This document shows positions 46,660 to 52,302 of a stretch of 64,000 bases of DNA, one piece after another. The DNA is from Bdellovibrionales bacterium. GTDB lineage: Bacteria > Bdellovibrionota > Bdellovibrionia > Bdellovibrionales > Bdellovibrionaceae. The DNA is taken from positions 1-64,000 of the forward strand of contig JAFEAQ010000008.1 of the NCBI GenBank assembly GCA_018266295.1. The letters are read 5' to 3'. The position numbers were made by a program, and so were the translations under genes. The notes under the pieces were generated by a model, which saw only the letters and a program-made list of their open reading frames with translations, did no database searches and was not told the origin of the DNA. The stretch's first letter is position 1. Each line of letters starts with the position of its first letter.

Positions 46660-46665
46660 TATAAT
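46660..46665 (+). promoter_or_regulatory. Minus-10 box for the structured RNA
   Basis: A perfect TATAAT, preceded by TGCG. The -35 region (TTATAG, 17 bases upstream) is poor. It would start a transcript near 46672, just before the structured region. Confidence 0.5.
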
Positions 46666-46671
46666 TTGGGC

Positions 46672-46828
46672 ATTTAGAAAAAATTGAACTTTCCCAATCC
46701 TTAAACCGATCCCCCTCGGGTTTAACGCTCTTTCGTAGGCCGGTGATTACGTTGGAGCCTTGAGAAGTAACTAACCAGTTTAGAAGCAATCCATGAGATT
46801 TTGATTGGGAAAGCCCAACTGGCTTTTT
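46672..46828 (+). ncRNA. Candidate structured RNA, copy A
   Basis: About 157 bases. The ends pair: TTCCCAATC (46691-46699) with GATTGGGAA (46803-46811). Inside are an AACCGA/TCGGGTT hairpin and an AGGC/GCCT hairpin (46737-46760). An intrinsic terminator (AAAGCC, loop, GGCTTT plus T run, 46810-46828) follows and shares two bases with the closing stem. A related sequence lies at 51900-52180, with shared blocks CCAATCC, CCGA..TCGGG, AACGC, TAGGC, ACG.TGGAGCCT and AAAGCCCA..GCTTTTTGCATTT. I know no RNA family with this pattern. Nothing else is seen in the 398-base gap 46510-46907. Confidence 0.6.
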
Positions 46829-46907
46829 GCATTTCCGGGGCCAGGGTAGGGAAAAATTTAAATGATTGCAATGTCCGACGGGGCCGGTGATCGGATGAGA
46901 GAGTCCG

Positions 46908-48878
46908 TTAAGCAGCCTTAGCGTGCTTCTGCGCGACTTCGTAAAGACCCAACCACTTCTGCAGATTCGGGTTGGTGTGATCGAGCTTACGAATACCTTG
47001 ATCCATCAGCTTAAAGTTCGGATTCAGTTGAATGTACTCGGGGCGCGCTTCGGCCCAATAATTATAGATCTTATAAGCCGCATACAGGCCCGAGAGCTGG
47101 AAGGCACTGCTATTGGAGCTAAACCAACCCATAATGCGCTTCACGTGATCGTCAGTCAGGCCTTCGATTTTCACGAGATCAATCAAGGCATCGGCAGCGA
47201 CACGGTTGTCGTCGTTTCTAACGAACGCAGGCAGGTCGATGACTTCGGGCTTAAGACTTTGCAACGCCTCGCGGGTATTTGAAACCACGCGCTTATTCAG
47301 CGACTTCAGGCACTGCTGCAGAAGGCTCACGATCTCTCCATCGACGGACTCCATCGTTAGCAGATTCTTCGCAAGCAAGGTAATTCCCGAGAGAGCCTGC
47401 ATGTTCTCGGACTTCATACCGATTTTCAGGAGGTTGCGGTATTGCTCGACGACCGCGTGACTCACGCGATGAATTTTCAGAGACGAAATATGCGCCCGCA
47501 ACTGATGGAAAACGTGATTCTGATCATTCAGAACGGCGTTGGACATCTCTCGCAGCATCGCTGCTAAGTCATGGTCTGTGCGGAAGTATTTTAAGCGTGT
47601 CAGGCTGTCGACCGGGTTCTGATAGCCTTTAATAGAGCGAATGTATGCCAGGTGGAAAGGCTCATCGTAGTTCTTAACTTTCACGACATTTTCAAACTGT
47701 GTAGAGGCATGGCCATCAAACTTGCTCATCGCCTCACTTGGCAGAGTCAGCATCGAGAACTGCTTCTCATCGATGGTCGTCAGAAAACGAGCCGTGTTGA
47801 TCAGCGGCTGACCTTCGGTTTCAGAGTTGCCTCCGAGTTTTTCAAGCTCCACAGAACCTGCATCGAGGGCAGCCTTCACAGTTAATTTGAGTTCCGGTAA
47901 CGTGAGCTCATGCCCGAGGTCTTGAAAGATCTCAAACATCCCACGCACAGCGTGCAGGGCCATCAGCTCCGCATCCGGAGTTTCATTTTTAGGAACAAAG
48001 AACGAGATCTCATCGCCAGCAGCATTTTCTTTGTAGGCTCCGTAGCGCGCAAGATACTCGCCACCGCGATTAAAGAACGTTTGAACGATATATTGCAAAA
48101 GCTCCGCAGAGATTTTCTGCTTGAGGACTGTGTAGCCGTTGATATCAACACGTGCAGCGGTGATTTCAACACTCTTGGCACCGGCCTGGATCTGCTCGTG
48201 AGCCCAGTTAAGACCGCTGTACGAGTTCGCTCTGTACTCCTGCGCGAGTTGTTCGGCAAGCTGGCGTTTCTGTTCCACGCCGTGGATGTATTCTTTAAGG
48301 CGAAGGGCATCCTTCGAGATGATCTCGGAGCTACCGGCAGGGGAGCGTCCTTTGAACCACTGAATGATGTTCTTCACATCGAAGTTCAGGAAGTAAGAGG
48401 CCACCTGCTGGATGAGCAGGATGATGCCGAGAACGAAGATGATGAGGACTTCTTTTTGATCCTTCAGCACTTGCAAGAGGAGCGTTTGGAAAGGCACATC
48501 GTCTTTACCGAAGAAGACAATATAGTCTTGTCCTTGCACTCGGATACTGCGCTTTGTTTGATAGAGATCTTTAGGATCGTATTTGGACTCTTTGATCAGG
48601 GCATTTTCACTCGAAGGATAAATGAGCTGCCCTTTGCCATCACGAATAGTGTAGTAAGCAATAGTCTCGGTCTGGCGATAAGTATCAAACATATTCTGGA
48701 AAAGATCATCGGCCTTTTGGTCACTACTATGATCGAGCATCTGAGCGATAGCTTCGATGCGCGCCTCGTCTCTGTGATCAACGAGAGTCTTCATGCGCCA
48801 ATACTGAACAACATAAAGAATCGGATAACCGATGAAGAAGGCGATAAGAAAGATGTATGTCTTCTTAAGGAGTCCCAA
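46908..48878 (-). CDS. Membrane class III nucleotidyl-cyclase-like protein
   Basis: 656 residues. Two membrane segments (about 8-28 and 138-160) enclose a periplasmic domain. A coiled region leads to a cyclase-like domain at about 225-400 with both metal-binding aspartates in place (ARVDINGYT and AAGDEISFF). The usual Asn-x-x-x-Arg element reads INTARF, one residue short, so activity is uncertain. The last 220 residues are helical, HEAT-like repeats. The start is a TTG directly after the preceding stop. It may be a cAMP-producing or degenerate signal receptor, coupled to the HExxH protein gene upstream. Confidence 0.72.
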   Translation of the reverse strand: MGLLKKTYIFLIAFFIGYPILYVVQYWRMKTLVDHRDEARIEAIAQMLDHSSDQKADDLFQNMFDTYRQTETIAYYTIRDGKGQLIYPSSENALIKESKYDPKDLYQTKRSIRVQGQDYIVFFGKDDVPFQTLLLQVLKDQKEVLIIFVLGIILLIQQVASYFLNFDVKNIIQWFKGRSPAGSSEIISKDALRLKEYIHGVEQKRQLAEQLAQEYRANSYSGLNWAHEQIQAGAKSVEITAARVDINGYTVLKQKISAELLQYIVQTFFNRGGEYLARYGAYKENAAGDEISFFVPKNETPDAELMALHAVRGMFEIFQDLGHELTLPELKLTVKAALDAGSVELEKLGGNSETEGQPLINTARFLTTIDEKQFSMLTLPSEAMSKFDGHASTQFENVVKVKNYDEPFHLAYIRSIKGYQNPVDSLTRLKYFRTDHDLAAMLREMSNAVLNDQNHVFHQLRAHISSLKIHRVSHAVVEQYRNLLKIGMKSENMQALSGITLLAKNLLTMESVDGEIVSLLQQCLKSLNKRVVSNTREALQSLKPEVIDLPAFVRNDDNRVAADALIDLVKIEGLTDDHVKRIMGWFSSNSSAFQLSGLYAAYKIYNYWAEARPEYIQLNPNFKLMDQGIRKLDHTNPNLQKWLGLYEVAQKHAKAA

Positions 48879-50735
48879 TTACTTACCTCTCACGAGAACA
48901 CCGTTCTTCTCAGTGTAGAGGACTTTAGTGCTCGGGGTTTCAAACTTATAACCATCCGCAAACTCAATCTGAACGCCCTTGTTACGGAGCTCCGTACGGT
49001 AAGCATTATCAGAAAGAAGTTTCTTACGAACTTTCAGCGCATACGCATTGTCGAGGCCTGGATCTGAGGAGAGACGGTTCGCGCTCTTGTTCACAGAGGC
49101 TACGTTACGTGAGCCACCTGATAAGCCAGAGCTTCCAAGGTTGGCAGTGTTACCGCTAGTAACCTCGCCACTACTGCTTCCGGAAGAAGAACCAGATGCA
49201 ACTTCCCCAGTACGGCCAGTAGTCGCCGCAGCTTTGTTAACGGCTGCGGATTTCGCGACCGTAGTTGCGCTGCCAACGGCAGCAGAAGTGTCGCCGCGGT
49301 TGCCATTTTCAAAACTAGTTGGAGGAAGAGTTTGAGCGAAAGCCGGGCTCTCAACATAGCTCACAATTGGAGCAATTTTCTTCGCTACAGTGTTAACTGA
49401 AGCATCAACGTAAGTTTTTACGTTTTGATACTGAGCTTGTTGTTGAAGCGAAGGGAGCTTAGTATTTACTGAAGAACTTGAGCTAGTATTCACGGTGCCT
49501 AAGCTTGCAATACTACGTTGTTGAACAGTAGTGGAAGAGGATCCGGAGTAGTTATTGCCGCCAGCCGCCTCTGTTGCACCTGAAGTATCGTTAGCAGCAA
49601 CTGCTGTGCCTTGATTCGTTACGGGTGTCGTAGCGCGCTCAGCGAAGGAGCTATAAGGGTTTGCAACATCACCAGCAAGTGTTTTCGCGCCGGTGCTCTT
49701 TGCATTTTCATCGGCAATGAATTTATTCTTTGATTCATCGATTTCGCGATTTCCAACGAACATTACATCCATTGGATTACAGTTGCCCTTTTCAAATTCC
49801 TTAATTTGTTTTTCTTTGAACGGATCAGGATCCCTAACTGTGTGCGCGAATTCATGTACGATAGCTTCCTGAGCTTTTTCTCTAAATTTATCTGGATTTT
49901 TTGTCAGGCAAGCAACATTAAGATGAATTTTAGTTTTGATACCTTCTTCAGTGATTCCACAAACATCACTAGTTGAAGGCGTCAAACTACAATTAATCGG
50001 GAATGGATTATTAATCTTTTCCTTCACTGCATCTTTGCTGTCAGTCTCAGAAAGTAAATTTCCTACCTTTGCGCGGAGGCTCGTAAATGGACTGAATAAT
50101 AAGCTATTTGCGCTTTGTTTTTGAGTGCAACTCAAAATTGGAGGCTCTCTAATTGCTTCTAATGTATCTTCACTGGCTGCGAGAATTTCATAGGCCGCTA
50201 CCGATAGAGCATCAAAATTCTTTTGTCCCAGCTTTTCTAAGCAGTCTTTTTCAAAAAAGAGCTGCTCAAACTTTGGCATTTTCTGATTATTATAAATGTC
50301 TAATAAACTATTTTGATTTTTAATGGCTGGAGGCACGGTGCAAGAATTTGTTTCGTCATCTAAATCTTTATTAAATTTCTCATATGGACGAAATGTGATT
50401 CCTGTATTTTCCCAAATGCTCTTATTTGCTACATACTTAAACTTTAGAAAACCAAGTTTTGTCCGCTTTTCCACCCACATGATAGATTCATGAGATGTTC
50501 TATCGACAACTATGCGAATAGCATTTTTCTCAACAGTTTCCCGAGAACCATTTCTTGTTTTGGTGAAGTTGTAAGAAAAATTTAGGTCGCCAGTTATAAA
50601 AACATTGGATGTGGCATTTCTAGTATTTTTATAATAGAAGTTTGCAGCGAATGCTTGATGCGCTGTAAATAAAACTGCAAAAAGAAGATTCAAAATTGCT
50701 TTAATACTGAAATCCCTTAAATGCTGACAAATCAA
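48879..50735 (-). CDS. Secreted protein with HExxH metalloprotease-like motif
   Basis: Up to 618 residues. A signal peptide ends in AFA. The globular part carries VHEFAHTVRD, an HExxH zinc motif, near residue 288, with eight or so cysteines around it. Residues about 350-540 are Ser/Thr/Ala/Gly-rich low complexity, and a short folded tail follows. The start is unsettled: TTG at 50735 lacks a ribosome site, and AAGGG lies before an in-frame ATT that would give a neat signal peptide. The first half is AT-rich. It may be a zinc peptidase on a flexible stalk, or a protein that kept only the motif. Confidence 0.65.
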   Translation of the reverse strand: MICQHLRDFSIKAILNLLFAVLFTAHQAFAANFYYKNTRNATSNVFITGDLNFSYNFTKTRNGSRETVEKNAIRIVVDRTSHESIMWVEKRTKLGFLKFKYVANKSIWENTGITFRPYEKFNKDLDDETNSCTVPPAIKNQNSLLDIYNNQKMPKFEQLFFEKDCLEKLGQKNFDALSVAAYEILAASEDTLEAIREPPILSCTQKQSANSLLFSPFTSLRAKVGNLLSETDSKDAVKEKINNPFPINCSLTPSTSDVCGITEEGIKTKIHLNVACLTKNPDKFREKAQEAIVHEFAHTVRDPDPFKEKQIKEFEKGNCNPMDVMFVGNREIDESKNKFIADENAKSTGAKTLAGDVANPYSSFAERATTPVTNQGTAVAANDTSGATEAAGGNNYSGSSSTTVQQRSIASLGTVNTSSSSSVNTKLPSLQQQAQYQNVKTYVDASVNTVAKKIAPIVSYVESPAFAQTLPPTSFENGNRGDTSAAVGSATTVAKSAAVNKAAATTGRTGEVASGSSSGSSSGEVTSGNTANLGSSGLSGGSRNVASVNKSANRLSSDPGLDNAYALKVRKKLLSDNAYRTELRNKGVQIEFADGYKFETPSTKVLYTEKNGVLVRGK

Positions 50736-50835
50736 TTAGTTAATTAACTATTAGATCGGCATTTAAGGGTAAATAGTTGAGAGGTGAACGGAATAAATCG
50801 GTTGTCTCAATTTGAGATTAAGTCGGTCCTAGGGT

Positions 50836-51717
50836 CTAGTTACAAGTGTCTTTATACTTTTGGTAGGCAGCCTTTGCGTTTGCCCAGTCAGCTGTGAAAT
50901 TTACTGCTAAGCCTCTTGTCGCCGAAGCAACTTGCTGATTCATTACGCCGATTGCTCTTAACGAACCATCAGCTTCTCTGCAAAGCAGAGGACCGCCAGA
51001 GTTGCCTGGTGTTACAGGACAACTAACATTGAATGCTGTAAGTCCACTCATAGATGTATCTAAAGAACAGTTGCCTTGCCACCAGAGATTTTTTACTGAT
51101 TTTTCACCTGGGTAGCCTGCTACTTCAAGAGTTTTGCAAGTTTGTGCGTCTTCAACACTATATTGGGCAGTTGTGATTTTTGGGATTCTTTGGCTAATAC
51201 CTTTTTCTAACTTATCATTGAAAGATTTTTTGAGCTTAATAAGTGCCCAATCCTCTGCGCCATTGTCGGCACGATTAGCATCAGGGTTACCAGAAGCAAC
51301 AACCTCACCCTCAATTGAATATTCAAAATCTTTGCCGGGAGTTTGACTTTGACCAACGTTGAAAGTCACTTTTTGACCGAGTACTTTCTGATTTCTGCCA
51401 AGAACATGCTTTGCAGTCCAAACAAGGCATTCATTTCCTAACCACGCAGAGCCACGACCAAGTTTCGTGTCAATCGCTCCAATACCGTTGTATTCTGGAT
51501 TCTTGATTCTATCGAGAGGTTGGCGCTGATCATTGTCCAAGTGACCAACTGGTCCTTTGAATTCAGATACAACATAGTAGCTCTTCAAAGCAGGCAACTT
51601 CGAAAGACCGCTTTTCACAGTGAGGTTTTGAGCACAAGTTTTAGTGTCTCCAAATGATACACTTGCAGTGCCGATCAGAGTTGCCAAGATTGTGATAACT
51701 AAAGCTGTGTTTTTCAT
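50836..51717 (-). CDS. Secreted trypsin-like (S1) serine protease
   Basis: 293 residues with a signal peptide; the ATG at 51717 follows GAGG, whereas the open frame to 51804 is not credible. Catalytic residues are in WTAKHVL, EDWALIKL and PGNSGGPL. It has several cysteine pairs (about eight cysteines) and lacks a lipobox, so it is probably released into the periplasm or beyond. It is more distant from the other two S1 proteases here, closer to the V8/trypsin border type. Confidence 0.87.
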   Translation of the reverse strand: MKNTALVITILATLIGTASVSFGDTKTCAQNLTVKSGLSKLPALKSYYVVSEFKGPVGHLDNDQRQPLDRIKNPEYNGIGAIDTKLGRGSAWLGNECLVWTAKHVLGRNQKVLGQKVTFNVGQSQTPGKDFEYSIEGEVVASGNPDANRADNGAEDWALIKLKKSFNDKLEKGISQRIPKITTAQYSVEDAQTCKTLEVAGYPGEKSVKNLWWQGNCSLDTSMSGLTAFNVSCPVTPGNSGGPLLCREADGSLRAIGVMNQQVASATRGLAVNFTADWANAKAAYQKYKDTCN

Positions 51718-51989
51718 AACGACCTCACTTGCAAATAGGTATTTCAAGAATCGTGCAGTGCCAGATGCAAATGAGTGATAGTTTAAGACAAATAGAACTG
51801 TCAAGGACCCGAATCGAGGACCAAAATTGGCGCCTAAGTTATTGGAATTATTTCAGAGTGAGACACTTTGTGCGTTCGGTGAAATGCTAAAAAGCATGGC
51901 ACTGAAGGGGGCTCTCCAATCCGTCCCTGGCCGATTTCTCCTCGGGGGTTCAACGCCCCTCTTAGGCGTGTACACGCTGGAGCCTAAAA

Positions 51990-52112
51990 TTACCGGAAAA
52001 GTTTTAGCAAACGTTCAATGATCTCAATAGCCAAAAGAACCAGCCTTAAGAGCCGTTGAGCTATATTCAAAAAACGACGAACCTTACTATGCTTTGTAGT
52101 TAGATTCTGCAT
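51990..52112 (-). CDS. Tiny cationic amphipathic peptide, 40 residues
   Basis: ATG at 52112 with a strong TAGGAGGT site five bases away. The peptide begins MQNLTTKHSKVRRFLN and continues as an amphipathic helix rich in Leu, Ile and Arg, ending LLKLFR (net positive). I recognise no family. It resembles membrane-active type I toxins or antimicrobial helices. Its ribosome site is paired in a hairpin (52115-52138), and the whole gene is antisense to structured RNA copy B, which would be a natural repressor. Confidence 0.55.
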   Translation of the reverse strand: MQNLTTKHSKVRRFLNIAQRLLRLVLLAIEIIERLLKLFR

Positions 52113-52114
52113 GG

Positions 52115-52138
52115 GACCTCCTAGGTAACGAGGAGACC
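52115..52138 (-). promoter_or_regulatory. Hairpin masking the ribosome site of the 40-residue peptide
   Basis: On the minus strand GGTCTCCT pairs with AGGAGGTC (two wobbles) around an eight-base loop. The right arm is the ribosome site itself, ending two bases before the ATG. Confidence 0.6.
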
Positions 52139-52302
52139 TCTGCCCAAAAAGCGAAATTGGAAAGCCCAGTTTCGCTTTTTGCATTTTGTGCGCCGATGTC
52201 GGTGATTTCTATTTTGGATTTGAGATTGCAAGAAGGGCAACTTTCGGACGGAGAGACCGAGTTTTAGGATTTAGCGCTGCGTCCGGAAACAGGGCCTGGC
52301 AC

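Follow-up and report, generated by a model that had tools for sequence, protein, structure and literature searches.

We analysed a 64,000-nucleotide stretch of DNA from a Bdellovibrionales bacterium (hereafter the window), in which an initial annotation had noticed two similar elements, here called copies A and B, and had read both as copies of one plus-strand structured RNA. Copy B is probably a type I toxin-antitoxin-like locus, with a predicted sigma54-driven mRNA, an mRNA lock and a putative antisense RNA that would act as antitoxin. What had been taken for a structured RNA is the strand opposite to a predicted, tightly folded peptide mRNA, and the 5′ domain of that supposed RNA is the complement of the mRNA's 3′ untranslated region. 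Sequence statistics bear out the conservation of an open reading frame (ORF), a long-range helix, covariation in a terminator, a promoter motif and constraint on particular codons (Table 1). Two features had been overlooked: the conserved minus-strand ORF of copy B, and the overlap of the 'terminator' with a conserved minus-strand promoter motif.

The ordered blocks that had been listed as common to both copies can be read directly in the window, and their sharing exceeds chance. Local alignment of copy A (46680-46760) with copy B (51905-51995) scores 50, against 22.3 ± 4.0 (maximum 41) for 1000 dinucleotide shuffles (z=6.8). The terminator parts align at z=4.8 and the whole elements at z=4.4, and none of the 1000 shuffles reached the observed score in any of the three comparisons. 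Both copies have the terminator hairpins and end-pairing stems previously described: CTTTCCCAATC pairs with GATTGGGAAAG over 11 of 11 base pairs in copy A, and in copy B GGGCTCTCCAATCC pairs with the opposite end of the element. The copy B helix is continuous on the minus strand, with U-G wobbles, whereas on the plus strand it contains A-C mismatches.

Table 1. Features of copies A and B, in window coordinates
Feature	Position	Strand	Basis
Sigma54-like promoter	52181..52194 (-24 GG 52194-52193, N10, -12 GC 52182-52181)	-	motif
Predicted mRNA start	~52169	-	placed from the sigma54-like motif
Long-range helix, 5′ arm	52154..52167	-	swapped-partner test, folding
Long-range helix, 3′ arm	51909..51922	-	swapped-partner test, folding
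Shine-Dalgarno-sequestering hairpin (GGTCTCCT / AGGAGG)	52117..52138	-	read directly; folding
Shine-Dalgarno AGGAGG	52117..52122	-	read directly; homologues
40-aa peptide ORF (MQNLTTKHSKVRRFLNIAQRLLRLVLLAIEIIERLLKLFR)	51990..52112	-	frame, homologues, codon-position bias, structure model
Peptide ORF start ATG	52112-52110 (stop at 51990)	-	
3′ untranslated domain (GGCTCCAGCGTGTAC...)	51905..51989	-	common to copy A; complement of the 5′ domain first described
Predicted antisense RNA, antitoxin candidate	52030..52187 (approximate boundaries)	+	prediction
Predicted antisense terminator (AAAAGCGAAATTGG-aaagc-CCAGTTTCGCTTTT then TGCATTTT)	52147..52187	+	stem covariation, swapped arms, wobbles
Copy A, ORF-less remnant	46689..46842	-	read directly; alignment to copy B
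Copy A sigma54-like GG-N10-GC	46842-46841 and 46830-46829	-	
Copy A long-range arms	46803-46813 and 46689-46699	-	

The ORF of copy B is intact, and it has the properties of a small hydrophobic or amphipathic peptide gene that has a Shine-Dalgarno sequence and is under selection. AGGAGGT is matched at 5 or more of its 7 positions in 69 of 73 copies. The peptides, mostly 33-45 aa long, follow the consensus M..RRFLxxxKxxLxLVLLxLxILKxxLDL (profile of 36 peptides). The peptide carries a net charge near +5, and its core is strongly amphipathic (helical moment 0.51; 0.22 when shuffled). A single-sequence AlphaFold model of the copy B peptide consists of one helix over residues 7-39 (mean pLDDT 85.8); it should be a membrane helix. 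Close copies differ 675, 412 and 901 times at codon positions 1, 2 and 3, and pN/pS is about 0.49 in close pairs, which indicates that the ORF is coding and that its synonymous sites are under extra constraint.

The family is widespread within its order. Homologues occur in Bdellovibrio relatives. With copy B as a DNA query against 99 relatives, 12 genomes matched, including its own, mostly through 52015-52186; copy A yielded short matches only. The conserved ORF on the opposite strand was recognised from reading the matched loci. A profile of five peptides then gave many further matches, and the profile of 36 peptides, run against 368 genomes of the phylum, gave about 150 or more matches at E≤0.001, in 48 genomes. 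These carriers comprise 39 genomes of the window's family (its own counted) and nine elsewhere in the order; outside the order, the 368 genomes contained a single marginal match. Several copies per genome are common, and tandem arrays occur (four copies in 1.6 kb in genome G016, five in 7.6 kb in G060, three in 4 kb in G030). Named carriers, taken from a scan of contigs with a promoter/terminator pattern in which only Bdellovibrionaceae matches were used, include Bdellovibrio sp. qaytius and a Pseudobdellovibrio MAG; as one would expect of 17 AT-rich bases, the pattern also matches numerous unrelated genomes.

The window's genome has four ORF-bearing copies and one fragment. Copies L051 (C11:948709), L052 (C11:250369) and L054 (C4:194571) have shorter, 33-aa ORFs with promoter box and hairpin, and in some of them the antisense promoter box discussed below is better preserved than in the window copy. 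The fragment (L053, C8:151942-151998) is a peptide gene without its start region, probably a second relic.

Database searches placed neither RNA nor peptide in a known family. The RNA corresponds to no Rfam family: nothing in the window attains an Rfam gathering score, and relaxed thresholds, applied locally, gave only chance-level matches. 6S RNA (RF00013) was considered and rejected, as it has no match in the window and its sole match is at G000:C4:535337-535515. The earlier view of a conserved structured RNA stands as regards homologues in relatives and absence from Rfam, but its second part, 'rather than coding DNA', and the placing of both copies on the plus strand are not supported: the element is organised around the protein-coding minus-strand ORF of copy B. 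For four members of the peptide family, Pfam and NCBIfam gave no match at E≤10, and by that measure the peptide showed no homology to AapA or Hok. PADLOC returned nothing for the peptide family, and PHROGs one chance-level match (E 0.44). A literature search covering open-access papers found no description from Bdellovibrio.

Upstream of the mRNA lies a conserved GG-N10-GC box that ends in TGCA. GG-N10-GC is the -24/-12 pattern of sigma54, and RpoN is encoded in the window's genome (rpoN). The box occurs in 45 of 71 leaders, compared with 9.6% of shuffles; the other 26 copies lack the full pattern, which we count against our explanation. Compared with the arrangement of a sigma54 promoter (-24 GG, N10, -12 GC and a start 11-13 nt downstream), copy B has the motif, and its transcription start is predicted from it. 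Across copies, the long-range helix begins a median of 13 nt after the -12 C, the expected sigma54 start position, and the predicted mRNA start coincides with the first bases of this helix.

The helix joins the 5′ and 3′ ends of the candidate toxin mRNA. Scored as an ungapped helix, with swapped partners as controls, it reaches 30.9 with its own partners versus 23.9 with permuted ones (maximum 25.7 in 10000 permutations; z=14-16). When close copies are removed z is still 13.8, and the own partner is the best in 16 of 45 cases, where 1 would be expected. G-T wobbles exceed A-C mismatches (77 versus 41, p=0.001), an excess that assigns the working helix to the coding strand. About one-fifth of copies lack a convincing ungapped helix, a second point against our explanation. 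Folding predicts the helix in 51 of 52 candidate mRNAs, a set preselected for complementarity. A local hairpin also covers the Shine-Dalgarno sequence, whose predicted unpaired probability is 0.22 in copy B (mean 0.19 over 52 copies), so that the primary transcript is predicted to be translationally silent. This occlusion is predicted with and without the 3′ end, which likewise counts against our explanation.

Because RNAalifold found no consensus for 41 sequences of the 3′ domain, we claim no fold for it. A 3′UTR stem-loop, GGGACUUAAAAUCC, recurs in many copies (e.g. L090, L098 and L071), with a seven-base loop of the CUnnnAA anticodon-loop type; the resemblance is insufficient to propose a tRNA mimic. 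Array subfamilies (L067, L068, L089 and L101) lack the canonical promoter and hairpin. They keep the 5′-3′ complementarity, with own partners again fitting better than swapped ones, and their Shine-Dalgarno sequence is covered by a near-perfect hairpin (e.g. ACCTCCAnnnnnnTGGAGGT).

The terminator hairpin has the opposite strand preference. Eight of its 10 pairs change on both sides, its covariation score is 0.41 versus 0.14 (0 of 500 shuffles), and its own arms fit each other better than swapped ones (z=14.5). G-T wobbles are fewer than A-C mismatches (10 versus 30, p=0.002), and this deficit indicates that the stem works in the antisense (plus) strand. Moreover, the arm nearer the promoter falls upstream of where the mRNA is predicted to start, and the complete stem can therefore function only in a transcript of the opposite strand. 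This covarying hairpin overlaps the sigma54-like mRNA promoter. Within the ORF, synonymous constraint is strong at the start, RR and LxLVL codons (z=4-14) and mostly near 0 beyond them. On the opposite strand the LVL codons read TAAAAC(TAG), a -10-like box. Together, the terminator wobbles, the stem geometry, the codon constraint and this box suggest a short antisense RNA that spans start codon and leader, less strongly for the window copy, where the corresponding site (52035-52040) is degenerate (AAGAAC, not TAAAAC). The plus strand probably makes a shorter RNA than first supposed, ending at the terminator already recognised. mRNA folding could account for some of the codon constraint, through an LxLVLL hairpin or RR codons that pair near the start codon.

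From these patterns we infer both transcripts, the antitoxin action, the toxicity and the trigger. A minus-strand sigma54-type promoter would give an mRNA of ~260 nt. Its product, an amphipathic, cationic helix of 40 aa, would act in or on the membrane. The Shine-Dalgarno hairpin and the end-joining helix would keep the full-length mRNA silent. A plus-strand antisense RNA would start inside the ORF, end at the hairpin overlapping the mRNA promoter, with its 3′ end at TTTTTGCATTT, and pair with start codon and leader as antitoxin. Trimming of the 3′ end, or loss of the antisense RNA, would allow synthesis of the peptide, which would then disturb the membrane.

The same RNA control could instead serve conserved membrane peptides under tight regulation and without self-toxicity, such as membrane-protein regulators or stress peptides. 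Toxicity is a prediction, the ORF is under purifying selection, and sigma54-type promoters are usually found on genes with regulated physiological roles, which suits such peptides. However, high copy number, tandem arrays and patchy presence are typical of type I toxins, as are doubly locked translation and a putative antisense RNA, and we consider this alternative unlikely. It is a good deal less probable still that the peptides are exported to kill prey or competitors, as might be suggested by a cationic amphipathic helix in a predatory order: no signal sequence and no exporter gene was seen at or beside copy B, and the mRNA fold-back and antisense RNA argue for protection of the producer. 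The original reading, a non-coding RNA on the plus strand that begins near 46672 or 51900 and extends to the terminator, can draw on the TATAAT upstream of copy A and on a terminator that is genuinely plus-strand, but copy B has no TATAAT upstream, and the end-pairing wobbles, ORF conservation and promoter motif favour the minus strand for the element, leaving this reading very little probability. Least probable of all is a mobile element end or a known RNA (6S, riboswitch or retron ncRNA), since several copies with terminal pairing would fit but Rfam is empty, 6S RNA lies elsewhere in the genome, there is no phage match, the copies are not identical and diverge with compensatory changes, and by eye the ORF list holds no transposase-like or reverse-transcriptase-like neighbour.

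As the peptide is unrelated to theirs, and toxicity and the antitoxin transcript are predictions, we file the locus as type I toxin-antitoxin-like, in neither the aapA/IsoA nor the hok/Sok family. The aapA/IsoA systems of Helicobacter pylori have a published 5′-3′ interaction, anti-Shine-Dalgarno hairpins and a cis antisense RNA inside the ORF (PMC6733600). Here we predict the same mRNA lock and an antisense RNA opposite the ORF, and the several chromosomal copies and short, presumably membrane-acting peptide are also alike. In contrast, there is no recognisable peptide similarity (about 40 aa here, 30 in AapA), the phylum differs, the mRNA promoter is sigma54-like, and the predicted antisense RNA is long, with an end hairpin overlapping that promoter. 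The hok/Sok mode of control, also discussed in PMC6733600, resembles our prediction in the 5′-3′ fold-back of a silent mRNA, a metastable 5′ hairpin and an antisense RNA, but here no overlapping mok-like reading frame was seen, the peptide is unrelated, and the antisense RNA is predicted over the toxin start itself. Tandem copies, short hydrophobic helical peptides and (here predicted) antisense RNAs recall the Ldr and Ibs toxins of E. coli, whose sequences are unrelated and whose RNA architecture is different. Those toxins are reviewed in PMC8309996.

A sigma54-type promoter on a type I toxin-like mRNA appears unusual. We propose tentatively, as a real possibility, that these loci form a large undescribed type I family specific to Bdellovibrionales, with sigma54 toxin mRNAs and with promoter and antitoxin terminator sharing DNA. 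If so, an enhancer-binding protein would decide the timing of the toxin message, and self-toxicity would be linked to a cue, for example phage attack or the predatory life cycle. PMC12390103 gives type I systems as reported from Proteobacteria, Firmicutes and Tenericutes and, in 2025, Cyanobacteria; the present loci would bring in the predatory Bdellovibrionota and some 150 or more loci that carry no annotation, along with a toxin-like peptide family that is new, a sigma54 input open to testing, and a compact arrangement that uses one piece of DNA as both promoter and antisense terminator.

Copy A retains its promoter box and terminator, along with the 3′ domain and the two arms of the long-range helix. 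It lacks the Shine-Dalgarno sequence and most of the ORF, and still holds sequence alignable to the ORF end. A promoter/terminator covariance model recovers the four loci with ORFs in its genome and not copy A. Read most simply, these sequences make copy A the remnant of a deletion that removed the ORF from the same element; alternatively, it may be a functional RNA without one. The TATAAT that had been assigned to copy A is perfect in sequence, but lies just outside the element's proposed start, at 46660-46665 on the plus strand, where it adjoins the remnant and may drive a plus-strand RNA across it.
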